From Microcoleus vaginatus PCC 9802 (GTDB lineage Bacteria > Cyanobacteriota > Cyanobacteriia > Cyanobacteriales > Microcoleaceae), in NCBI GenBank assembly GCA_022701275.1, contig CP031740.1, forward strand, positions 6,213,001-6,277,000: a stretch of 64,000 nucleotides of DNA, read 5' to 3'. The position numbers and the translations under genes are program-made. The notes beneath the pieces were generated by a model, which saw only the letters and a list, made by a program, of their open reading frames with translations, made no database searches and was not told the origin of the DNA. Of the stretch, positions 1 through 17,146 are shown piece by piece (the first letter of the stretch is position 1; each line of letters starts with the position of its first letter).

Positions 1-1546
1 TGAGTTTTTTGAGGGTGAGTTTTTCTTTAAAGAGTTTCAGGGTGGCTTGGGCTTTGGCGATGGAGGCGATGACGTGTTGGCTGTTTCTGATTGTGATGTA
101 TTCGCTGCTGTAGCTTTCTAGTTCTTTTTGGTTTTTGGCTAATTCTCTCTCTAATTCATCGACGCGGCGGTTGGCTGATTCACAGGCGGCGGCTGCTATA
201 GCGACTGCCTTTTGGGCTTTCCTGACCTCTTCTTCTAGTTTTTCGTAGGCTTCGGGGGAAGCTGCGGCTGCGAGTTGTCTGTCTGTAAAATCGATTTCTG
301 CTTCGATGCTTTTGATTTCTTCTATTTGGTCGCGGGCGAGAATTTGCTGGGCTTTGATTTGGTAGCTAAGAAGGTTTTCTAGTTGCTGGATGCTGTTGTT
401 GTCGGCGTTCATCCAGGGCGGAACGTCTGTTCCCGCTTGCTGTTCGAGTTCTTGGTTTTCTTGGCGGATGAAGTCTTGAATTTTATCTAGCTGTTGGGGA
501 TTTAACGAGATTTCCGCGATGTAGTTGAGAAGGCGATCGCTTCTTTGTTTGATAACATTTTGGGCAATCTTTGCTTGCTGCTGGCTGGCTTCTGTTTCTG
601 CTTGAATTTTGGCTTCGGTTAGCAAAGGCGAAATTAAGGCTAGTGGTAGCGTATTTGATGCCAATTCCATCATGGCTTGACGGGTTTTGTCTGCCTGATT
701 TCTGTAGTCGTTTAGCTTGCTGTCTAGCTGACTGCGATCGGCGGCAATTTTCCCGCCTTCATAAATAAACTTGTCTGATGCTTGTTGCTGATTTTTTTGA
801 GCTTTATCTAACTCGTTTTTAAAGCTGGCTTGTTCTTGCTTAGCTGCGTCTATTTCATCACTAATTTTCTTAAAAGTTTGTTCGATTTTCTCTAAAGCAG
901 CCAAGTCTTTTTTGCCAGCAATTTCTTTCCGCTTGCGGCCGGCTAAAATTTCTAAATCGACGGCGAGGCGTTCTGCTAATTCTAAACCTAAAAGAGATTT
1001 AATCGCCCCGACGACAAACTCCGGCGGTGTTTCGAGTTCGGCGAGTTCTTTTACTTGTTCGCCGTCAAACAAAAATAGGTTGGATATTCCGACAGGCAAA
1101 AGGGTTTCGATGTATTCGTCCCAGGTGTTAGTAATTGCTTTGTCAGACCACCAATCGCTGACAATCTCACTGTATATGAGAATACTTAAGTTATCTTTGA
1201 TATCGGGTTTTTTCCAGTATCTAACTATTTTGAATTGAGCTAATTTGTCATCTTGGACTTGTTCAAATGTTAGTTCGACGCGGGTATCTTCTAATGGGGG
1301 AGTATGGCGGTTTACGCATTGATTGAGAAAGTCGCTGTAGCTTAAATTGCCTCTGGTGGAACATTGGGCGCGACCACCGTAGAGGGCGAGGCGAATGGCG
1401 TCCATGAGGGTGGTTTTGCCGCCGCCATTCATGCCGCCAAATAGGATAACTGGGCAGGGATTTCCGTCTTTTTCGGGGCGGAGATTGATGGTTTGGGTGC
1501 CTGCATAGGGGCCAAAGTTTTTGAGAACGAGTTCGAGGAATTGCAT
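1..1546 (-). CDS. dndD: DNA phosphorothioation protein DndD, N-terminal part (runs off left edge)
   Basis: This is an SMC/Rad50-like ATPase of the DNA phosphorothioation (Dnd) system, acting with DndC and DndE in placing sulfur in the DNA backbone. Reading the minus strand from the ATG at 1546 gives about 515 residues open to the window edge. The start is MQFLELVLKNFGPYAG, followed by a Walker A motif (GGMNGGGKTTLMDA, about residues 38-51) and LFLFDGEQVKELAELE, typical of DndD. A long coiled coil with many Gln, Glu and Lys follows. The Walker B and signature motifs must lie beyond the left edge. dndC lies upstream on the same strand, separated by about 1.65 kb of repeats and a RAYT gene. It is the canonical DndD; a second, different SMC ATPase lies at 13330-15396. 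Confidence 0.9.
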   Translation of the reverse strand, partial: MQFLELVLKNFGPYAGTQTINLRPEKDGNPCPVILFGGMNGGGKTTLMDAIRLALYGGRAQCSTRGNLSYSDFLNQCVNRHTPPLEDTRVELTFEQVQDDKLAQFKIVRYWKKPDIKDNLSILIYSEIVSDWWSDKAITNTWDEYIETLLPVGISNLFLFDGEQVKELAELETPPEFVVGAIKSLLGLELAERLAVDLEILAGRKRKEIAGKKDLAALEKIEQTFKKISDEIDAAKQEQASFKNELDKAQKNQQQASDKFIYEGGKIAADRSQLDSKLNDYRNQADKTRQAMMELASNTLPLALISPLLTEAKIQAETEASQQQAKIAQNVIKQRSDRLLNYIAEISLNPQQLDKIQDFIRQENQELEQQAGTDVPPWMNADNNSIQQLENLLSYQIKAQQILARDQIEEIKSIEAEIDFTDRQLAAAASPEAYEKLEEEVRKAQKAVAIAAAACESANRRVDELERELAKNQKELESYSSEYITIRNSQHVIASIAKAQATLKLFKEKLTLKKL

Positions 1547-1633
1547 TGTAGATGTTGTTGAGATGGGATGAAAGTTGGTGGGTGCGATCGGCGTATCCGA
1601 CAGTCCGGGGTCGATGTGTGAGTCCGACAGTCC

Positions 1634-1763
1634 GACAGGGATTGAAATCCCTGTCTCATAGCTAAAGTCCTCTAAAGAGGACTGAAGTTTGTGACTGTTG
1701 AATCTGGGTTTTTAGTCGGTTAAAACCGACTTTCGCTATGAGACGGGGATTTCAATCCCCGGC
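1634..1763. repeat. Multi-hairpin REP-like repeat, copy 1
   Basis: First of six related copies flanking the RAYT gene. The block holds four palindromic pieces in order: gacagggattgaaatccctgtc-type hairpin split as GACAGGGATT/AATCCCTGTC, an agtcctct/agaggact hairpin, agtcggtt/aaccgact, and gacggggatt/aatccccggc. The first and last pieces, with the adjoining ctcatagc and gctatgag, are near reverse complements, so the whole block can fold as one closed multi-branched structure. It lies just downstream (minus sense) of the RAYT gene and upstream of dndD. Confidence 0.85.
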
Positions 1764-1829
1764 GGATGTTCGGGTAAGCCCGATCGACTCGATTGGTCGA
1801 TCGGGGTTGATCGGCGTGTCCCCCAGTAC

Positions 1830-1959
1830 GACAGGGATTGAAATCCCTGTCTCATAGCTAAAGTCCTCTGAAGAGGACTGAAGTCGGTGGGCGTTTGATT
1901 TGGCTGTTGAGTCGGTTAAAACCGACTTTCGCTATTAGACGGGGATTTCAATCCCCGGC
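1830..1959. repeat. Multi-hairpin REP-like repeat, copy 2
   Basis: Second full copy in the same orientation as copy 1, with the same four palindromes. One base of the closing arm differs (gctattagac instead of gctatgagac). It ends about 65 bp from the stop codon of the RAYT gene. Confidence 0.85.
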
Positions 1960-2024
1960 GGGTCTGGATGTAAACGCAATAGCTGGAGATCCCGCGAGTC
2001 GGAGAGTCGGCCAATATTTTTCAA

Positions 2025-2477
2025 TTAATTCTCTGGCGAATTCGGGTGCCACCGGGTGGGTGGATTGTCTTGATCCGTGATTTGTTCTAAATGCGAATTT
2101 GTGGTTTTTTGCAAGTGATGTTCCTTTTGATTTATCACATAAGCGACTGCTGAGTCTAGTTGTTTTTGTCCTAAAGAAAATACTCCGTATCCTTCTTGCC
2201 ACGAAAATTTATGGGGATTTTGCAAAGTTTGATTGAGATAACGGCTGCTGCTACCTTTAATATTTTTAACGAATTCAGCGATCGATTGTGTCGGAGGAAT
2301 GGAAACTATTAAGTGGATGTGATTTTCTGTGCCGCCGATGGCGTGGAGGATGCAATTGAGGGTGTCTGCTTTGCCGATGATATAAGAGTAAAGTTCGGTT
2401 TCTTTTGCGGGAGATATGAGAGGCTGTCGCTCTTTTGTTGCCCAAACTAAATGATAGTACAGCCGCCACATTGCCAT
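2025..2477 (-). CDS. REP-associated tyrosine transposase (RAYT, IS200-like Y1 transposase)
   Basis: A single-domain Y1 (HUH) transposase of 150 residues, the size of IS200/IS605 TnpA and of REP-associated RAYTs. Visible motifs are the N-terminal WRLYYHLVWATKERQPL, the metal-binding HUH motif in GGTENHIHLIVSIPP (about residues 48-62), and the probable catalytic tyrosine in AVAYVINQKEHH (about residue 113). The family cuts and joins single-stranded DNA at hairpins; RAYTs act on REP palindromes. It is flanked by two repeat copies downstream and four upstream, the arrangement expected for a RAYT with its cognate repeats. It lies collinear with the flanking dndC and dndD genes. There is no TnpB partner and no typical IS200 end. 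An alternative ATG two codons downstream is possible; neither has a strong ribosome site. Confidence 0.88.
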   Translation of the reverse strand: MAMWRLYYHLVWATKERQPLISPAKETELYSYIIGKADTLNCILHAIGGTENHIHLIVSIPPTQSIAEFVKNIKGSSSRYLNQTLQNPHKFSWQEGYGVFSLGQKQLDSAVAYVINQKEHHLQKTTNSHLEQITDQDNPPTRWHPNSPEN

Positions 2478-2575
2478 AAAGATTTTTCCGGATTTTTTAG
2501 GTGGATTTATGATTCTGTCAACGAATCTGAGAGTGCGATCGGGGTCGATCGGAGAGTCCCACGATCCGACAGTCC

Positions 2576-2706
2576 GACAGGGATTGAAATCCCTGTCTCA
2601 TAGCTGAAGTCCTCTTAAAGAGGACTGAAGTCGGCGATCCTTTAATTTAGCGCTTCAGTCGGTTTTAACCGACTTGCGCTATGAGACGGGGATTTCAATC
2701 CCCGGC
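2576..2706. repeat. Multi-hairpin REP-like repeat, copy 3
   Basis: Full 131-bp copy about 100 bp upstream of the RAYT start. It has all four palindromes and the outer ctcatagc/gctatgag pairing. The sequence before it (gatcggggtcgatcgg, agagtcccacgatccgac) is repeated before copy 4, so the repeating unit there is about 223 bp. Confidence 0.87.
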
Positions 2707-2798
2707 GGATCTTCGGGTAAGGGCGATCGACTTGCAGAGGACAATCGGGGCGAGAGTGCAATCGGGGTCGATCGGAGAGTCCCACGATCCGACAGTCC

Positions 2799-2929
2799 GA
2801 CAGGGATTGAAATCCCTGTCTCATAGCGGAAGTCCTCTTAAAGAGGACTGAAGTCCCCAATCCTTTGATTTAGCGCTTCAGTCGGTTTTAACCGACTTTT
2901 GCTATGAGACGGGGATTTCAATCCCCGGC
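2799..2929. repeat. Multi-hairpin REP-like repeat, copy 4
   Basis: Full 131-bp copy, nearly identical to copy 3 and exactly 223 bp downstream of it on the plus strand. This suggests a local tandem duplication of repeat plus spacer. Confidence 0.87.
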
Positions 2930-2952
2930 GGATCTTCGGGTAAGGGCGATAC

Positions 2953-3036
2953 TCCTGAAGTCGGCGATCCTTTGATTTGGCCCTTCAGTCGGTTTTAACC
3001 GACTTTCGCTATGAGACGGGGATTTCAATCCCCGGC
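2953..3036. repeat. Half copy of the REP-like repeat, copy 5
   Basis: Contains only the right half: ctgaagtcggcgatcc, the agtcggtt/aaccgact hairpin and the gacggggatt/aatccccggc hairpin. The first hairpin is absent. Followed by cggatcttcgggtaagggcgat, shared with copies 3, 4 and 6. Confidence 0.8.
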
Positions 3037-3060
3037 GGATCTTCGGGTAAGGGCGATACT

Positions 3061-3143
3061 CCTGAAGTCGGCGATCCTTTGATTTGGCCCTTGAGTCGGT
3101 TTTAACCGACTTTTGCTATGAGACGGGGATCTCAATCCCCGGC
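3061..3143. repeat. Half copy of the REP-like repeat, copy 6
   Basis: Tandem partner of copy 5, about 107 bp away, with the same right-half structure. One base breaks the last palindrome (gggatctcaatccc). It ends about 60 bp from the dndC stop codon. Confidence 0.8.
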
Positions 3144-3200
3144 GGATCTTCGGGTTAGCCCGATACCCCAAAGCCCGATCGCCCGATCGACATTATTGAC

Positions 3201-4886
3201 CTAATCTTTGCTATTTTCCCCTCCTGAATTTGGTGGTGAAAATTTAATATCCGCCCAAGATAGCTGCCTACTTTGATTGCTGTTGCTTTCGAGTTCTTCT
3301 TTAAGTTTGGCAATATCAACGGTATCGTTTTTGGCGGAACTGTTGGTTTGGGCGATCGCATCTTTGAATTGCTGAATATTTTCGGTCGGATTTGCTTTAA
3401 TATCTTCCACCGCTTTTTTTAAATTGCGTTGATAGTGGGCGTTGCCAATCGCTTCTTCCTTCGATCGCGAACTGGTTTCAAAGCATTTGTCCAAATCGCC
3501 GTAAATTCCTGTACGGCGGGGTTTCGTGTAGTATTGGCGTTCTGTATCAAGGAGTTTTGCCATCAATTCGAGGTGCATTTTGTCCTCGCTGCAAATGTCT
3601 TCGATCACAGTCCATTCATCGCTACCTAGGAGTTTTCTTTCAGCGGCGGGACGGGAATCTTCAAAAGGCTCGCCCGTAACTTCTTCATAAATCCGGGGCA
3701 AGCTGTCGTCAAATTCGTGCTTTTGTTCCAGCCAAATTCGGCGGATTTCGCTAAGTTCTTCCGGGGTAATTAAGGTGATGTCGCGCATTTCTTGGGGTGC
3801 GGTTTTGCGGATGTGGGTTTGTGCTTCCAGGACTCGTCTCAGCCAGTGTTCTCGCCAGAATTTGGTGTAGGGCCCTGGGATGGGTTCGACGGAGGTTGTG
3901 TCGTCGCCCATGTTGCGTTCAAACAGTTCTACTCTACCGTAGATGCGTCGGAAGTCTCTTTTATCGTGATCGTTTTTAATGTCTAATTCGTTGCGAATAT
4001 CAAGGAGAGGCTGCATCCATTCTTTTTCCTCATCGTTTTGAATCATTGCCTCCATAGATTTATCTTTGTCAACCATTGTACACACCCAGCACCCAAAGCG
4101 AGAATCGCCACAGCTAGGAGTAGAAGTATCTACAACTAAAGGACACTCATTGTCTGCTGTTGCACCTCGATACATGGCAAATAAATCTTTATTGTTATTT
4201 CCCCAAGGATTGTCCCACTGCATTAGATACAGCCAAACTTCATCATCACGCCAATCCTCGATAGGGGTATAAATTAAAGAGTTAGGTAAGCGACCATTAG
4301 GACTGAGGCGATCACGCAATCTACCTGCTTCATACTTTTTCATTGTTGCTGCACGTTTGCTGCTTTCAGCCTTGCGAGTACCCAAAACGACAATAGTTTC
4401 ACCATGTACTCGAACTAAATCTCGGATAAATTGATTTACAGGCTGAATTTTCATCCTATCTGTACACCACCGAAATCCATTGCGAGGCGCTGGATAGCCT
4501 TTACCAATTAAGCATACCCAGAATGTTTCTTTCACCTCTGGATGAAGCAGATGCGGGGAAACAGGCATTTTTTGCTCTTGAGCAAGTATCTTGAGCTTAG
4601 CTAAAGATTTACGTACCCAAGTCGAAATAATCGGATTTTCAGCGAAAGTATCCGTTGTAATTACATGGATAGTTTTTGTGCGTTTCTCGATCGGAAGTGC
4701 TGCGATTGCGTTCCAGATAAGCTGCAATACTGCGGTGCTATCTTTCCCGCCACTCCAACCGATTAACCAAGGTATAGCGTCTGAGCAGTATAATTCTTGA
4801 ATTTCTTTAGTTAGCTCTTTTATCTCATCGAGTAACTCCTTAACAGTTCGCGGCGCAAATAATGACATCTGCTGAATTTCTATCAC
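3201..4886 (-). CDS. dndC: DNA phosphorothioation protein DndC (PAPS-reductase-like sulfurtransferase)
   Basis: DndC is the ATP-pyrophosphatase/PAPS-reductase-like, iron-sulfur protein of the phosphorothioation machinery and activates the DNA for sulfur insertion. The 561-residue product has the PP-loop SGGKDSTAVLQ (about residues 45-55), RNGFRWCTDRMK, and a Cys cluster in CPLVVDTSTPSCGDSRFGCWVC (four Cys, about residues 250-271; key residues only) typical of the 4Fe-4S site. The C-terminal third is charged and Asn/Lys-rich. The start is taken as GTG at 4886 because aggggt lies 9 nt upstream; an ATG seven codons in (4868) has no such site. It faces away from the DGQHR gene at 5054, with a 167-bp divergent promoter region between them. 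Confidence 0.93.
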   Translation of the reverse strand: MIEIQQMSLFAPRTVKELLDEIKELTKEIQELYCSDAIPWLIGWSGGKDSTAVLQLIWNAIAALPIEKRTKTIHVITTDTFAENPIISTWVRKSLAKLKILAQEQKMPVSPHLLHPEVKETFWVCLIGKGYPAPRNGFRWCTDRMKIQPVNQFIRDLVRVHGETIVVLGTRKAESSKRAATMKKYEAGRLRDRLSPNGRLPNSLIYTPIEDWRDDEVWLYLMQWDNPWGNNNKDLFAMYRGATADNECPLVVDTSTPSCGDSRFGCWVCTMVDKDKSMEAMIQNDEEKEWMQPLLDIRNELDIKNDHDKRDFRRIYGRVELFERNMGDDTTSVEPIPGPYTKFWREHWLRRVLEAQTHIRKTAPQEMRDITLITPEELSEIRRIWLEQKHEFDDSLPRIYEEVTGEPFEDSRPAAERKLLGSDEWTVIEDICSEDKMHLELMAKLLDTERQYYTKPRRTGIYGDLDKCFETSSRSKEEAIGNAHYQRNLKKAVEDIKANPTENIQQFKDAIAQTNSSAKNDTVDIAKLKEELESNSNQSRQLSWADIKFSPPNSGGENSKD

Positions 4887-5053: not shown

Positions 5054-6232
5054 ATGTCTGAAAACAACTACCCAGAGACTGATTCGAGCCAGAAACTTGA
5101 GGATGTTCTAGAGCCTTACTTTGCCAAGTACCACCGTCAGAAGTGCTATCCAGGGCTAATTTTCCAGCAGGGGAAGCGGAAGATGGTGCAAATAAATATC
5201 CCGGCTGATGACTTGCCTACCCTCCTCCAGGCCAAACCATCAACTGGCAACGATCCTGATTCTGGTAAAAACCGCCCAGAGATAAAGGGTCATGCTGAGG
5301 AAGTAAAACAATATATTCTTAAACGTGCTAGAAACGATCAACCCTGGATTTTGGGGACACTGACAGCAAATGTCGATCCAGAAAAGATTGACATTATAGA
5401 ACTAGGTCGAGGGATTTGTCTAGTAGTTATTCATCGTGGTGTTAAGTTAGATATTACTGATGGACAGCATCGCAAGCGCGCTATTCACGAGTTAATTGAA
5501 AGTGCTGACGGCGAATTAATAGGTGATAATGATTTCCCTATTACGTTGGTTTTAGAGGAAGACTTTAACCAGTGTCAGGCGGATTTTCGAGATATGGCGC
5601 AGACAAGACAACTTGATAAATCCTTACTTTTGTCATTCGGTGAGTTTGAAGGTAGGGTTGGTATTACCAAAAACTTACTTGAAAAAGTTTTAATGTTTCA
5701 TGGAAAAACAGATAAAATTAAAACTAATCCCGACAGTAAAAGGAAACTTATATACACAACTAATTTTATAGCCAAATTGGTGAGTTGTGCGTTTACTGAC
5801 GGCCCAATTGATGAACTCAAAGATTATGACGTTGCTGAATCCTCAAGTATTCTGGCTAGATGTCTTAACAATTTCTTTTCCGAATGTAGTCAGACTAGAC
5901 ATATTTGTGAAACCAGCGTTGAAAATTTGACAGTTGAAGATGTGAATCATTTTAAGGAATACTGTATCTTAGGTAGAAGTGTAGGGCTAGAAGTTTTAGG
6001 TCGGTTGCTATACTATACCTATGACACAGATAGCAGCCAAGATTTTGATCCTGAAAAAGTATCGGAAGTGGCACAACTGGATTGGTCTAGACAAAGCCGT
6101 ATTTGGGAGGGAAATGTTGTTTTATCTAACTCCAACCCTAATAATCCAAGAGCCTCCTATAAAATAACAGCAAGTGCTAGTGCTGTAAAAATGGCGGTCG
6201 AGGCAGCAAAAGCCGAGTTAGGATGGATTTAA
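5054..6232 (+). CDS. DGQHR-domain protein, DndB-like paralogue
   Basis: A 392-residue member of the DGQHR family, to which the phosphorothioation regulator DndB belongs. The signature is at about residues 136-142 (ITDGQHRKRAI). The preceding segment (ILGTLTANVDPEKIDIIELG) and the following acidic Gln/Asp-rich part (FRDMAQTRQLDKSLLLSF) match the usual layout, in which a conserved core holds D, Q, H and R. It is longer than and clearly different from the canonical dndB at 6984-8105. It is divergent from dndC and precedes the predicted nuclease-like gene at 6299 by 66 bp, so they may be cotranscribed. By analogy it may bind DNA or regulate the dnd genes, but no function can be assigned from sequence alone. 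Confidence 0.85.
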   Translation: MSENNYPETDSSQKLEDVLEPYFAKYHRQKCYPGLIFQQGKRKMVQINIPADDLPTLLQAKPSTGNDPDSGKNRPEIKGHAEEVKQYILKRARNDQPWILGTLTANVDPEKIDIIELGRGICLVVIHRGVKLDITDGQHRKRAIHELIESADGELIGDNDFPITLVLEEDFNQCQADFRDMAQTRQLDKSLLLSFGEFEGRVGITKNLLEKVLMFHGKTDKIKTNPDSKRKLIYTTNFIAKLVSCAFTDGPIDELKDYDVAESSSILARCLNNFFSECSQTRHICETSVENLTVEDVNHFKEYCILGRSVGLEVLGRLLYYTYDTDSSQDFDPEKVSEVAQLDWSRQSRIWEGNVVLSNSNPNNPRASYKITASASAVKMAVEAAKAELGWI

Positions 6233-6298
6233 CTAATATTATCGGCGTTCATCTGCGTGCATCTGCGGTTCTCAAATCCATCCCCCCCCAGATCAAAT

Positions 6299-6910
6299 AT
6301 GTCCTACAGCGACTTCAAAACGATCGACCAAGCCGTCTCAACCCTGGATCTAACCGTTGAAGACATTCCCCACTTATTCAGCCAAATTACCCCGATCGCA
6401 CCTTCAGAACGCCTCAAACAAACTCTAGACGAAACCTTAGACTTAGCATCCAGTATCAGCACGGAAAAAGCTCGCTCGGAATTAATCATTACTCCCATTC
6501 TACTCGAAATACGGCGCACTTTCAACAACAAAATTGGCTACTTTTCCGGCAACACATTTAACGTAGAAGAGAGCAAAGGATTAACCGGGGCTTGTGACTT
6601 TCTCCTCAGTGCATCCAGCAATCAATCATTAGTTACAGCCCCAGTCTTGACATTAGTGGAAGCAAAAGACAACGATATTAGAATAGGATTGGGACAGTGT
6701 GCGGCTCAGATGGCAGCAGCTCAAATATTTAATGCCCGCAAAGGGCAAGAACAATCCGCAATTTATGGAGCAGTTTCAACTGGTACAAACTGGAAATTCC
6801 TAATTCTAGAAAATCAGTTGTTAAAAATTGATTTGACTGAATATTTTATTACTCAGCTAGACCAAATATTGGGCATTCTTGCAGAACCATTCAGACGCTA
6901 TTTTAATTAG
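6299..6910 (+). CDS. Uncharacterised cyanobacterial protein with PD-(D/E)XK-like motif
   Basis: A 203-residue protein starting at the ATG at 6299 (MSYSDFKTIDQAVS); codons upstream of it derive from a repetitive 'catctgcgtgcatctgcgg' stretch and are unlikely to be coding. No named family is certain. The middle holds GACDFLLSA, then about 15 residues later LTLVEAKDN and GQCAAQM. The D...E-x-K arrangement plus downstream Gln resembles the PD-(D/E)XK nuclease fold, common in restriction enzymes and in cyanobacterial hypothetical proteins. A conserved SELIITPILLEIRR helix precedes it. It sits between two DGQHR genes in the phosphorothioation island. The nuclease idea is inference. Confidence 0.75.
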   Translation: MSYSDFKTIDQAVSTLDLTVEDIPHLFSQITPIAPSERLKQTLDETLDLASSISTEKARSELIITPILLEIRRTFNNKIGYFSGNTFNVEESKGLTGACDFLLSASSNQSLVTAPVLTLVEAKDNDIRIGLGQCAAQMAAAQIFNARKGQEQSAIYGAVSTGTNWKFLILENQLLKIDLTEYFITQLDQILGILAEPFRRYFN

Positions 6911-6956: not shown

Positions 6957-7004
6957 GCACGGGCGTCCCGCCTGTGCCTGCATCTACGGGCGGGACGCCT
7001 GTGC
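6957..7004. repeat. Interspersed hairpin repeat overlapping the dndB 3' end
   Basis: An inverted repeat with perfect 11-bp arms, ggcgtcccgcc at 6962-6972 and ggcgggacgcc at 6989-6999. Extra gcac/gtgc matches surround it. Such 'gggcgggacgcctgtgc' palindromes are interspersed in cyanobacterial genomes. It runs into the coding sequence of dndB and supplies its last residues and stop codon. It may also act as the terminator between the convergent genes at 6910 and 6984. Confidence 0.75.
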
Positions 7005-8105
7005 AGTATCTGCGGTTTCCAAACCCAACCGCTTTTTCAAATAATTAGTCATCCAACTAACACTCGCCCTCGACTTAGAAATCCCCCCTTTCAACAAAAT
7101 CCCACCCTCCCAATCAGGATTAGAAATCGACCAATCAACCTGCTGCAAAAGGCTCAAACGTTCCTCCCAACTCTCAGGAAAAACCGATCGCAAAGCCGCC
7201 CCAACTTCCCCCAAACTCTCAAGCACAACACTGTGACAGTGCACGCAATCCCGGCGCATTTCCCCCGCCGCAACTTGCTTGTGCAGAACTAATTGCCAAT
7301 CTGGAATAAAACTGCAAACCGCATTCCAATAACTAACCGCCAGTTGTATTTTTTGAGCGAGTTCTTCCTCTTTCTGTTCTTTTTTGGTGCGAGAACCAGA
7401 GGGTTTTGCCTGTTCGCTGCGGTGAATATTAGACAGCAAAGCCATGATAGCACGATCGATCGCACTCAGCGCAAACAATTTGTGCGATCGCCCGTTCAAA
7501 CTCCCCTTCTCCATCTCAGTCAAACACCGGAAAACCTCAACCTGCTTAACAACAGCCTTCACCACAAAAGCCCGATCGTCCCGGTGGTTGTAAAGTAGAC
7601 TTAGCGACGCCTCCAAAGGAACTTGAAAATTATTCAAATCAGCAAACATCTGCTGCGATTTTTCCAACCCAATATCGAGAAACAAAATCAGCGCCACCGT
7701 CTCATATCCCAACTGCGGATTTTCCCTCAAAGCCATCTCAAAAGCCGCCCGGCGATGCTGTCCGTCATTAATAGTAAACTTAGCATCCATCGGCACCCGC
7801 AAGCGACCAATTTTCCGTTCTTCTGCCTCATTTCCCACTGCTTCAAAAGTAATATCCGCATCAATCGAAGCAGCAATTGCCCCACAAGTATAATTTGTAG
7901 GATTCTTAACAAAATAATCAGCAATTTCGGGAATCCTAGCTTTGTTAAGCGCGCGTTTCGCCCGCATAGACGGTGGCAATTCTTCAGATTCAAAGGGAAA
8001 CAATTTCGGCAAAAAACGCACCGGACACATCGACACGTAATATTCGCGGCCCGCTTGAATTCCCCGGATGACCGGCAAAATGTATTCAAAGGAAGGAGTA
8101 GACAT
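6984..8105 (-). CDS. dndB: DNA phosphorothioation regulator DndB
   Basis: Canonical cyanobacterial-type DndB, 373 residues. DndB is known as the negative transcriptional regulator of dnd operons and as a determinant of modification density. The DGQHR signature is in KFTINDGQHRRAAFEMAL (about residues 111-128). Upstream is RIPEIADYFVKNPTNY; downstream is ALILFLDIGLEKSQQMFADLN, all hallmarks of the family. It is divergent from the DGQHR gene at 8321 and convergent with the gene at 6299. The C-terminal tail (ADTAQASRP) is encoded by the interspersed hairpin repeat at 6957-7004, so the natural end has probably been replaced. The region upstream of its start carries degenerate gggcatt heptamers (8110-8166). 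Confidence 0.93.
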   Translation of the reverse strand: MSTPSFEYILPVIRGIQAGREYYVSMCPVRFLPKLFPFESEELPPSMRAKRALNKARIPEIADYFVKNPTNYTCGAIAASIDADITFEAVGNEAEERKIGRLRVPMDAKFTINDGQHRRAAFEMALRENPQLGYETVALILFLDIGLEKSQQMFADLNNFQVPLEASLSLLYNHRDDRAFVVKAVVKQVEVFRCLTEMEKGSLNGRSHKLFALSAIDRAIMALLSNIHRSEQAKPSGSRTKKEQKEEELAQKIQLAVSYWNAVCSFIPDWQLVLHKQVAAGEMRRDCVHCHSVVLESLGEVGAALRSVFPESWEERLSLLQQVDWSISNPDWEGGILLKGGISKSRASVSWMTNYLKKRLGLETADTAQASRP

Positions 8106-8320: not shown

Positions 8321-9913
8321 ATGACTACCCATCCAGCGGATGACCTCGCTAGCAAAATTTTAGAAAAAGAAAATAGCGACAGACAGGAAATCGCACTTTT
8401 ATTAGATAATTATTTAGGAAAGGACGATCGCATTTTCGTACAAAAAACCCAGATGGGAAACAGCGAAGCATACATCGGTTCAGTCACCCTAGAATGGTTA
8501 GACTCTCGCGTCCGTTTCGCCTCCCAGATGCCGCTTTTCCGCCAAAAATTCGACCTCCAAACCAACAACATCGTCCGCGACGACGAAACCATTGACGAAA
8601 TTATCCAGCGTCCCTTAGATTGGTCGCGCCAAGCAGCCCTCACTCAATATTTAGCAGCCCGAAAATCGCACAAATTCCCCGCAGTTTTAGTAGTCGTCAG
8701 TCCCCCGTGGGTAGACAATCCTCTAGCAGAAGAATGGGATAAAAATGGCGTAGCAACCAAATCCGCGACTGAATTTACATCCTTTGATAAAAACGAGAAC
8801 TTAGGGCTTTTGAATGTTTCTAAAGAACTCTCGATTTTTGCCTTAGACGGTCAACATCGGCTAATGGGAGTTCAAGGTTTAATGAGTTTAATTAAAACCG
8901 GAATCCTGCAAAGATACAACAAAAATAAAAAACCTGTCGGCGCTGCAATTACTCTGGAAGATTTAGCAGAAGAGTATCAAATCGACCCCGAAACAGTGTA
9001 TAAATTAGCTCACGAAAAAATCGGGATTGAGTTTATCCCGGCGGCGGTAGCGGGGGAAACGCGACAGCAAGCACAACGGCGCGTGCGATCGATCTTTGTG
9101 CATGTTAACCTAATGGCGGTAACGCTGAGTCAGGGCCAGCTAGCATTATTGAACGAGGACAACGGATTTGCGATCGCAGCCCGAAAAATTGCCGTCACCC
9201 ATCCCTTATTAAAAGAGCAAGATGACAGAAACCCCCGCGTCAATTGGGACAGCGCCACAGTCGCAGCAAAATCAACTGTGTTAACCACATTGCAAGCGCT
9301 GCAAGATATGTCCGAACGGTATTTAGAATACAAATTCCCTCATTGGAAGCCGGAACGAAAAGGTTTAATTCCCATGCGTCCCGAAGATGAAGAACTAAAA
9401 GAGGGAATTGAAGAGTTTAAAAAATTGTTCGATCATTTAGCAACTTTACCCAGCTATCAAAGAATTGAAAGCGGCGAAGAAACGGCAGAATTGCGCCGAT
9501 TTAGTTTTGAAAAGCCACCGGGCGAGGGAAATCTTTTGTTCCGTCCAGTCGGCCAAATTGCTTTAGCTAATGCTTTGGGAATTCTAGTATTTAGAAAGAA
9601 ACTTTCCCTGAAATCTATTTTCGACAAACTCCGCAGATTCGATGTCGATGAAGGATTTAGCCACATGGACAATCCTGAGTCTGCCTGGTACGGGATTTTG
9701 TACGATCCGAACAAAAAGCGAATGCTAGTTTCTGGAAAGGATTTAGCGACGAAGTTAATTGTATATTTGGTGGGGGGAATTCAGGACGATATGGAGCGAG
9801 CTCATTTGCGGCAAGCGGTGGCGGAAGCGAGGACTTTTGAGGGTAAAGCTGTTAGTTTTAACGGCCGATTTGTGCAGCCGCAAGAGGTAGGATTGCCGCC
9901 AGTGCTGAGCTAA
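8321..9913 (+). CDS. Large DGQHR-domain protein
   Basis: A 530-residue protein with the DGQHR signature in IFALDGQHRLMGVQGL (about residues 177-192). It is preceded by a long N-terminal part (LEWLDSRVRFASQMPLF) and followed by VRSIFVHVNLMAVTLSQGQ, in which the usual DndB 'N-x-x' segment can be recognised. It is some 150 residues longer than DndB and forms a third DGQHR type in this island. Large DGQHR proteins are frequent near DNA modification genes but have no fixed role. It has its own promoter-like sequence upstream. Its end is 97 bp from the antitoxin gene. Function unknown; regulation of or association with the phosphorothioation system is inferred from context. Confidence 0.85.
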   Translation: MTTHPADDLASKILEKENSDRQEIALLLDNYLGKDDRIFVQKTQMGNSEAYIGSVTLEWLDSRVRFASQMPLFRQKFDLQTNNIVRDDETIDEIIQRPLDWSRQAALTQYLAARKSHKFPAVLVVVSPPWVDNPLAEEWDKNGVATKSATEFTSFDKNENLGLLNVSKELSIFALDGQHRLMGVQGLMSLIKTGILQRYNKNKKPVGAAITLEDLAEEYQIDPETVYKLAHEKIGIEFIPAAVAGETRQQAQRRVRSIFVHVNLMAVTLSQGQLALLNEDNGFAIAARKIAVTHPLLKEQDDRNPRVNWDSATVAAKSTVLTTLQALQDMSERYLEYKFPHWKPERKGLIPMRPEDEELKEGIEEFKKLFDHLATLPSYQRIESGEETAELRRFSFEKPPGEGNLLFRPVGQIALANALGILVFRKKLSLKSIFDKLRRFDVDEGFSHMDNPESAWYGILYDPNKKRMLVSGKDLATKLIVYLVGGIQDDMERAHLRQAVAEARTFEGKAVSFNGRFVQPQEVGLPPVLS

Positions 9914-15754: not shown

Positions 15755-17146
15755 TCAAATGTCTAATAGCCCGTAACGCTTCTGAAGTTGCAGCAATTTC
15801 ACTCTAGCTTCCCCAGCATTGTCGGCTAAATCGGCAAATTCCAAGAACCGCTTCAACTCTTTTCGCAGCAAATTGCGCTCGACTTCTAAGGTTTCACGAC
15901 CCAAATCGGGAGGCAAAACTATCATGTCAAATAAAGTTGCCCTTTCCTTCCCCGGATGCGGCCGCAAAATGCGTCCCCGGCGCTGAATAAACTGGCGCGG
16001 ATTGCTGCTGCTTGCTAAAATTACAGCATTGCGAATTGCAGGAATATCCACCCCTTCATCCAAACACCGAATCGCTACCAAACCTTGCAATTCTCCACTC
16101 TCAAATTGCTGGCGCAATCGTTCTCTTTCTGCTAAAGGAGTCGCCGCCGTATAAGTGTTAACTCGGTAGCCTAATTCGGAACCCAATAACTTCGCGGTTT
16201 CTGTTAGTTGGCGGTTGTTATTTCGGCGCGCACCTCCTTCGATCTCACCGTCGCCGCAGTAAAATAAAGTATGGCTTGTGTCGAGACGGTGAATCATTAA
16301 TTCTCGCAAAGCTGTTAATTTATTAGCCGCTGCCCCAATTAACCGAGCTCGCTGCATTAATAAAGTCGTTAAAGCATCGTTTTCTTCTACTTTTTCATCG
16401 CCCCAAAGCGCCCAGCCAATCTTTTGAGTTAAGCGGGAATACTTGCGGGTTTCGGCTTCTGTCAATTCTACTAAAATTGGATAGTATAAATAATGTACTA
16501 ATGCTTTTTGGCGGATGGCGTCGGCTAAGGTGAGTTCCGGCTGCAAAACAGGGCCGAAATAATCTAAAATAGCTTCGGTTCCTTGTTCGTCGAAATGCCT
16601 TTCTGGGGTGGCGGAAAGGGCGAGTCGCAGTCCAATATTGCGCGGCAAACTTTCTCCTAAACGGGGCGCGCCTAAGTTATGAACTTCGTCTCCAATAATC
16701 AGAGTTTTTTCTGGGAAATAGCGCAGTTGCGATCGCAAACTATCTCCCATTAAGGTAGCATTGGTAGTGATGATTGTGAGAAATGCTCGCTCGCCAGATC
16801 GCACTTCATACAAACCCCCAGCCAGCTTATTCTGCCAACTGCGGGCGCTATCAAAAGCCAAAATAGGTTTTAAACCAAATTTCTCGGATTCGCGCGCCCA
16901 CTGATTCACCAGATGGCAGTAAGGGCAAATTACGAGCAGGACTTGCAGGTTAATTTTATTGTATAGTTCAGTGGCGATCGCCAGCGCAGTAATCGTCTTG
17001 CCGCTACCCGTCGCCATCTTCAGCGTACCGCGTCCCTGATTCGCAAACCAATTAGCAACCGCCACCCGCTGATACTGCCGCAATTGCAGCGATGGCGGCA
17101 TTTTCGGAAACCCAAATTGCGAATTATTAGGCGTTGAGCGATTCAC
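15755..17146 (-). CDS. DEAD/DEAH helicase, phosphorothioation system restriction enzyme type
   Basis: A 463-residue superfamily 2 helicase. Motifs: QYQRVAVANWF, Walker A MATGSGKTITALA (about residues 45-57), DEVHN (motif II, as IIGDEVHNLG), SATPERH (motif III), CLDEGVDIP (motif V) and FIQRRGRILRPHPG (motif VI). This compact form matches the family annotated as 'DNA phosphorothioation system restriction enzyme', linked to dnd genes by co-occurrence. No nuclease domain is evident in it, so cleavage may rely on a partner such as the Uma2 protein. It is the first gene of the minus-strand block, 86 bp before the 91-residue gene. The start is a GTG; an ATG at 17101 is an alternative. Confidence 0.85.
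   Translation of the reverse strand: MNRSTPNNSQFGFPKMPPSLQLRQYQRVAVANWFANQGRGTLKMATGSGKTITALAIATELYNKINLQVLLVICPYCHLVNQWARESEKFGLKPILAFDSARSWQNKLAGGLYEVRSGERAFLTIITTNATLMGDSLRSQLRYFPEKTLIIGDEVHNLGAPRLGESLPRNIGLRLALSATPERHFDEQGTEAILDYFGPVLQPELTLADAIRQKALVHYLYYPILVELTEAETRKYSRLTQKIGWALWGDEKVEENDALTTLLMQRARLIGAAANKLTALRELMIHRLDTSHTLFYCGDGEIEGGARRNNNRQLTETAKLLGSELGYRVNTYTAATPLAERERLRQQFESGELQGLVAIRCLDEGVDIPAIRNAVILASSSNPRQFIQRRGRILRPHPGKERATLFDMIVLPPDLGRETLEVERNLLRKELKRFLEFADLADNAGEARVKLLQLQKRYGLLDI

Follow-up and report, generated by a model that had tools for sequence, protein, structure and literature searches.

Between dndC and dndD, two genes of the DNA sulfur modification (Dnd) system, the cyanobacterium Microcoleus vaginatus PCC 9802 carries a transposase gene flanked on both sides by palindromic repeats, an enzyme-repeat system of a known general kind that occupies a recurrent but permissive place. 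We document the anatomy of this unit, its recurrence in related genomes, the clean and scarred gaps of close relatives, and the purifying selection acting on the enzyme gene. In our judgment, the unit is probably akin to a REPtron, that is, a single-copy HUH/Y1 transposase of TnpA subclass 1.2 together with its cognate REPIN family, carried as a passenger in the permissive dndC-dndD gap.

Organization of the dndC-dndD region

The window, the whole 64,000-nucleotide stretch analysed here, is part of a single contig of 6,698,371 bases. On the minus strand, the order is dndC, repeats, transposase, repeats, dndD and dndE, the last lying in the adjoining stretch, and the reading frames of dndC and dndD are both uninterrupted. 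The features are as follows.

3201..4886, minus strand: dndC, upstream neighbour (TIGR03183, 710.8 bits, cut-off 290.4)
3090..3153, minus strand: half copy, a single two-hairpin unit (model R1)
2983..3046, minus strand: half copy, a single two-hairpin unit (model R1)
2789..2939: full REPIN copy 4, upstream of the transposase gene; units 2789-2853 (plus) and 2876-2939 (minus) (model R1)
2566..2716: full REPIN copy 3, upstream of the transposase gene; units 2566-2630 (plus) and 2653-2716 (minus) (model R1; DNA fold z -9.9)
2025..2477, minus strand: HUH/Y1 transposase, TnpA subclass 1.2 type, 150 aa (PF01797, 103 bits; NF033573, 89.3 bits)
1820..1967: full REPIN copy 2, downstream of the transposase gene; units 1820-1883 (plus) and 1906-1967 (minus) (model R1)
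1624..1773: full REPIN copy 1, downstream of the transposase gene; units 1624-1687 (plus) and 1710-1773 (minus) (model R1)
1..1546, minus strand, start at 1546: dndD, downstream neighbour (TIGR03185, 389 bits over the portion within the window)

With the adjoining stretch included, dndD encodes a full-length protein of 665 aa, and profile searches of the window and that stretch place dndB, dndC, dndD and dndE together. Profiles and a covariance model thus bear out the original prediction that a Y1 transposase with repeats of its own is located between dndC and dndD. The six repeat copies that had been described as lying in one orientation do all point the same way, but only four are full, the two outermost upstream ones being half copies of one unit each. 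The length of 130-131 bp proposed for a full copy agrees with the inverted pair of two-hairpin units that is seen, which spans about 131 bp between the outer hairpins.

Three DndB/DGQHR-type proteins adjoin dndC (5054-6232, plus; 6984-8105, minus; 8321-9913, plus), of which only the second exceeds the DndB cut-off, and a PADLOC PD-(D/E)XK match of 164.7 bits lies between two of these genes (6257-6910, plus). A dnd_restrict_1 protein is encoded at 15767-17104 (minus; TIGR04095, 660.6 bits, cut-off 600), so that the dnd island may contain a restriction partner.

Classification and conservation of the transposase

The enzyme contains the motifs NHIH, WQ and YVINQKEHH at residues 52, 93 and 113, respectively, and aligns with the TnpA of IS608 across the HUH, Y and Q positions. 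It passes the NCBIfam IS200/IS605 profile (NF033573, 89.3 bits against a cut-off of 55) and fails the REP-associated transposase profile (NF047646, 25.8 bits against a cut-off of 80). The Y---Q--HH signature of TnpA subclass 1.2 is present as YVINQKEHH at residue 113, with NQ where the Y--NP motif of class 2 has NP, and Y--NP has no match among the 83 relatives scanned. By sequence, the window enzyme is accordingly classed with TnpA subclass 1.2 and not with the classical RAYTs. The designation as RAYT type in the original prediction holds for its behaviour, a gene with REPs on both sides that also occur scattered over the genome, but not for its sequence.

The sections of Quentin et al. 2018 (PMC6006769) that describe subclass 1.2 agree with our enzyme in the Y---Q--HH and WQ motifs, short length (148 aa median), low copy number, and occurrence in Cyanobacteria and Bacteroidetes. 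Table 1 of that paper gives a mean of 4.8 copies at 99.4% identity for subclass 1.1 and of 1.7 copies at 36.2% for subclass 1.2, for which it enters 'no' under REP and which is described there as generally devoid of IS200-type terminal structures. Unlike this published, REP-less subclass, the enzymes studied here have repeats at 49 of 51 loci of one subgroup and 30 of 30 of another (see below); because the subclass is defined by sequence, the adjoining repeats extend the published description and do not expel the protein from it. Class 2 RAYTs differ, as far as the same source describes them, in having Y--NP and, in most of their REPs, a GT[AG]G foot, in contrast to the YxxxQxxHH of our enzyme and a repeat consensus that lacks GTAG. 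Kinship to the IS200/IS605 TnpA of IS608 is evident in the sequence and the aligned catalytic residues, but the multiple near-identical copies typical of subclass 1.1 are absent from this genome.

The genome contains a single close copy, the sole other match being 29% identical. The nearest named relatives of the enzyme come from Microcoleus and Tychonema, and all plasmid matches fall below 60% identity. The catalytic tyrosine is retained in 82 of 83 relatives (two Bacteroidota left out), and pairwise dN/dS ranges from 0.10 to 0.32 in the 28 pairs formed by eight close genes; the enzyme gene is under purifying selection in several lineages. An antisense copy between dndC and dndD of one genome (L020/L177, G147) has serine in place of the catalytic tyrosine.

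Structure of the repeat unit

Covariance model R1 identifies ten 64-nt units between 1624 and 3153 and, at an E-value of 0.01, no further units elsewhere in the 64-kb window. Eight of the ten form four REPIN-like inverted pairs, and two are single. Each unit consists of two hairpins and a conserved linker with the consensus CTCATAGC. Folded as DNA, one full copy reaches -47.6 kcal/mol compared with -18.1 +/- 3.0 in shuffles (z -9.9), so the structure of the repeat is not due to chance; the transcribed strand folded as RNA reaches -82.1 kcal/mol (z -9.8).

Among 44 units of the PCC 9802 genome, 96.3% of pair cells hold standard pairs, both sides have changed in 98 cells compared with 31.8 +/- 4.0 in shuffles, and G-U pairs account for only 2 of 747 cells. 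Related units can exceed such shuffles even without structure, but pairing falls to 37-55% in a control where the partners are shifted by one, two or three columns. The double changes show that the hairpins of this repeat family are under constraint. A second measure, of further pair types, yields no excess over shuffles for this family or for the second one described below. Rfam returns two matches for the region, both far below the gathering scores, and GTAG is absent, as judged by eye, from the consensus of the 44 units.

Genome-wide distribution of the repeats

At least 115 units are present genome-wide at an E-value of 1e-5 (150 best candidates scored). Outside the window, 20 of 22 places drawn from the highest-ranking matches carry a pair of oppositely oriented units, so the inverted pair that defines a REPIN is the usual form here too, and 1 of 20 repeat places checked overlaps an ORF of at least 150 aa. 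The original prediction had named repeats spread at equal density without a RAYT as an observation that would count against it. The units are indeed dispersed, and another genome, G544, has 127 of them and no close transposase at an E-value of 1e-20, but their density is far from equal, the ten units in 1.5 kb being packed roughly 400 times more densely than elsewhere in the genome. From G544 it follows that the repeats can persist after the enzyme is gone or depend on a different one. Within the genus, the median number of units is at least 86 in genomes with the enzyme (n = 9) and 55.5 in those without (n = 20), a weak difference (p = 0.016, relatedness ignored).

In the parts of PMC3116915 and PMC6006769 that deal with RAYT/TnpA-REP enzymes and their REPINs, the REPtron is characterized by the same traits: a single-copy gene, clustered adjoining repeats, repeats dispersed as inverted pairs, and enzyme groups matched to repeat groups. 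The GTAG REP families of cyanobacteria, as presented in the corresponding sections of PMC3733652, are likewise palindromic and often dimeric but carry the GTAG tag and were monitored in Anabaena, Nostoc and Cyanothece.

Two enzyme subgroups and their repeats

Units recognized by R1 adjoin 49 of 51 related loci of the protein group of the window enzyme, the two without them being from Bacteroidota. A second subgroup, about 40% identical to subgroup 1, has repeats of its own at 30 of 30 loci. These follow the same two-hairpin plan with a different linker, CTACACA, and are 99.3% paired, with double changes in 48 cells compared with 14.0 in shuffles; five of the pairs show a double change, a count not above that of shuffles.

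A profile of the window units matches 44 of 52 subgroup-1 loci, 0 of 30 subgroup-2 loci and 5 of 119 enzyme-free dnd regions, whereas the second-family profile, built from four units whose seed loci are among the 30, matches 4 of 52, 30 of 30 and 7 of 119, respectively (the two Bacteroidota loci are excluded from these and the motif counts). At the level of sequence, then, enzymes and repeats are paired, one repeat family per subgroup. Weak R1 matches (20-27 bits) at some subgroup-2 loci outside dnd suggest that the two families may be distant kin.

The subclass described as REP-less would thereby gain two enzyme-repeat pairs of one plan with different linkers, which makes guidance of enzyme to repeat testable by swapping the pairs. 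In the open-licence literature, we found no published report of a repeat partner for subclass 1.2 or of a subclass 1.2 enzyme within dnd.

Occupancy of the dndC-dndD gap across cyanobacteria

Of 386 genomes in a sample of the phylum, 93 exceeded the dndC profile cut-off, and of the 61 genomes of the family, 56 did so; among the 56, G518, G532, G541 and G542 were left out, as was the second dndC of G528. In 107 of 135 regions, dndD lies downstream on the same strand. The enzyme is found in 16 of these 107 resolved gaps, with eight subgroup-2 and seven subgroup-1 copies co-directional and one subgroup-1 copy antisense. The antisense case, G147, was pre-selected because its enzyme was already known, and its removal gives 15 of 106, including the genome of the window; G061, where the enzyme adjoins dndD at a contig edge, is uncounted. 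By a crude ORF-based count, none of 297 other gaps of at least 20 bp in the same regions holds the enzyme (Fisher p = 2.4e-10 for 16/107 against 0/297, with G147 included and relatedness ignored), and no enzyme-profile match occurs elsewhere in the 135 dnd regions. The split of dndC from dndD, which had been regarded as unusual, is thus real but recurs among cyanobacteria.

In the enzyme tree, from which 16 duplicate loci were removed, the dnd label requires eight changes, at least four of them on well supported branches, compared with a shuffled mean of about 20. In the dndC tree, which omits six short dndC rows, one of them enzyme-bearing (L097), subgroup 1 requires seven changes and subgroup 2 five. 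Given two subgroups and a copy in antisense orientation, this protein group has probably entered the gap more than once, although the trees cannot separate gains from losses.

The other 91 gaps are free of the enzyme; 35 of them exceed 350 bp, and many of these hold unrelated genes. Among 27 scanned of the 36 listed non-Y1 ORFs, PD-(D/E)XK (7), Uma2 (4), RRXRR/HNH (1), PfkB, YkuD and other families are represented. The RRXRR/HNH protein is one that we take to be IscB-like. Many of the occupants, the Y1 enzymes of 16 gaps included, are of nuclease type.

Repeat units without the enzyme are present in 9 of the 91 enzyme-free gaps. One close relative (G075) has a clean gap of 78 bp, and in two others (G525 and G535) the gap contains a scar, one palindrome that joins the left half of the outermost hairpin on the left to the right half of the outermost hairpin on the right; G534 has the same scar with one mismatch. 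According to the passages of PMC6006769 that treat them, 'double foot' repeats could come from central deletion between inverted copies. Our scar could have been made by the enzyme or by plain slippage between palindromes, and the deletion may have taken out one pair or the entire block. Exact double-foot scars, a pattern that misses the one in G534, occur at 0 to 6 places per genome in eight genomes, the reversed-pattern control giving 0.

Two genomes, G536 (L274) and G537 (L275), have no dndD within 6.5 kb of dndC and carry the enzyme elsewhere, in line with the statement in PMC8546630, in the part concerning Microcoleus, that dndBC and dndDE are apart in some strains. We considered the repeats as the cause of this split and rejected the idea, since the dndC stretches of both genomes contain none.

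Loci outside dnd

For 62 of 85 de-duplicated relatives, the stretch examined shows neither dndC nor dndD. Copies of subgroup 1 lie between hsdR and hsdM (L028, L032, L034), between hsdM and hsdS (L016), between cas10d and csc2 of a type I-D CRISPR locus (L048) and next to drmA in a DISARM-like locus (L023), and all six are co-directional with their neighbours. The second neighbour in L023, with a weak MmeI match (E = 9.4e-5), may be the drmMI of DISARM.

Neighbouring ORFs were scanned as a set for 89 of the 108 listed (first 25 families) and singly for 30 proteins, so that others may be missed. In the 34 discovery loci, dnd or these defence families adjoin the enzyme in eight, a rate inflated by the choice of the families from the same loci. 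The same queries on 31 new loci give two cases, both drmA (L335 and L346), the latter belonging to the genus of L023. In L340, a weak hsdR fragment lies more than 1 kb away and is uncounted. In the controls, the count is 1 of 29 for repeat-only places, the one being the dnd scar itself, and 0 of 16 for subgroup-2 places outside the dnd clade. That enzyme relatives occur at loci of type I restriction, CRISPR I-D and DISARM-like systems is suggestive only. We regard it as unlikely, though worth keeping in mind, that multi-gene defence operons house subclass 1.2 enzymes and their two-hairpin REPINs because the enzymes serve, or shelter in, modification and restriction systems, as a domesticated single-strand nuclease accessory. 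Should the pattern hold in a full survey, it would add a new accessory to prokaryotic defence.

Origin and role of the inserted unit

Under the REPtron-like reading that we prefer, the enzyme would most likely recognize its repeats as folded single-stranded DNA and would move or multiply them in trans. Copy number, selection and patchiness suggest that the gene is inherited and often lost and does not jump in the manner of an insertion sequence. It would reside in the dndC-dndD gap, apparently a permissive site in cyanobacteria, as a co-directional passenger presumably expressed by read-through, with no dedicated role in DNA sulfur modification. Deletion between the outermost hairpins could remove the insert, or the gap could be replaced. 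Some observations do not fit this reading easily: the 127 units of G544 show that repeats are not tied to a resident copy, unit numbers within the genus depend only weakly on enzyme presence, the scar could equally stem from slippage, the only antisense dnd copy, that of G147, lacks the catalytic tyrosine, and co-direction in 15 of 16 gaps would equally suit a selected member of the operon.

Such a member could be a functional partner, an HUH nuclease serving dnd or defence operons generally, for instance a nicking effector or an enzyme whose substrate is modified or single-stranded DNA. Recurrence in one gap by two subgroups, mostly in co-direction, the copies at hsdR/hsdM, hsdM/hsdS, cas10d/csc2 and drmA, and the nuclease types among the other gap occupants (PD-(D/E)XK 7, Uma2 4, RRXRR/HNH 1 of 27) speak for a partner. 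Against it, the one antisense copy is catalytically broken, the enzyme is missing from 91 of 107 gaps, close relatives keep dndC and dndD without it, most relatives (62 of 85) have neither gene in the stretch examined, and out of sample the tested defence families adjoin it at only 2 of 31 loci, so that we consider a partnership improbable. For the more specific proposal that the transposase acts on phosphorothioated DNA, we found no support, as most relatives lie away from dnd and the gap takes unrelated genes.

Selection could instead act on the repeats, which would attenuate or process the mRNA and so adjust the level of DndC relative to that of DndD, with the enzyme incidental. The strong RNA fold of the transcribed strand and the position within the operon would suit such a role, but selection on RNA would be expected to permit more G-U pairs than are seen, the same repeats occur at many other intergenic places, and the gaps of close relatives do without them. 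Moreover, promoter-like and terminator-like sites in the region are not in excess over shuffles: all six terminator-like sites are on the plus strand, opposite to dnd (4.9 expected), and a promoter-like site at 2521-2492 (minus), 15 nt before the enzyme start, is within chance. We consider a regulatory role very improbable, and the original idea of attenuation or processing of the dnd transcript is thus far unsupported. Similarly improbable is an ordinary IS200/IS605 insertion sequence that jumps as a whole and has the adjoining units as its ends. This would accord with the NCBIfam label of the protein and with the minimal dnd-linked subgroup-2 loci (L214 and L215), which consist of a unit, the gene and an inverted unit; however, the genome has one close copy, what is multicopy is the repeat and not the gene, and purifying selection spans several lineages.

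One operon gap has probably been entered more than once by single-strand transposases, with clean and scarred gaps in close relatives, and represents a natural experiment on the keeping and losing of REP enzymes, a long-standing open question for RAYTs.

Two further loci deserve mention. A metagenome-assembled genome named Candidatus Chloroheliaceae, non-cyanobacterial by name, contains a subgroup-1 enzyme with repeats (L050), possibly on a misbinned contig. Between dndC and dndD of G154 (L136, 4105-5880), the 164-bp second-family repeat forms a tandem array in which most copies are 98-99% alike, indicating recent amplification.
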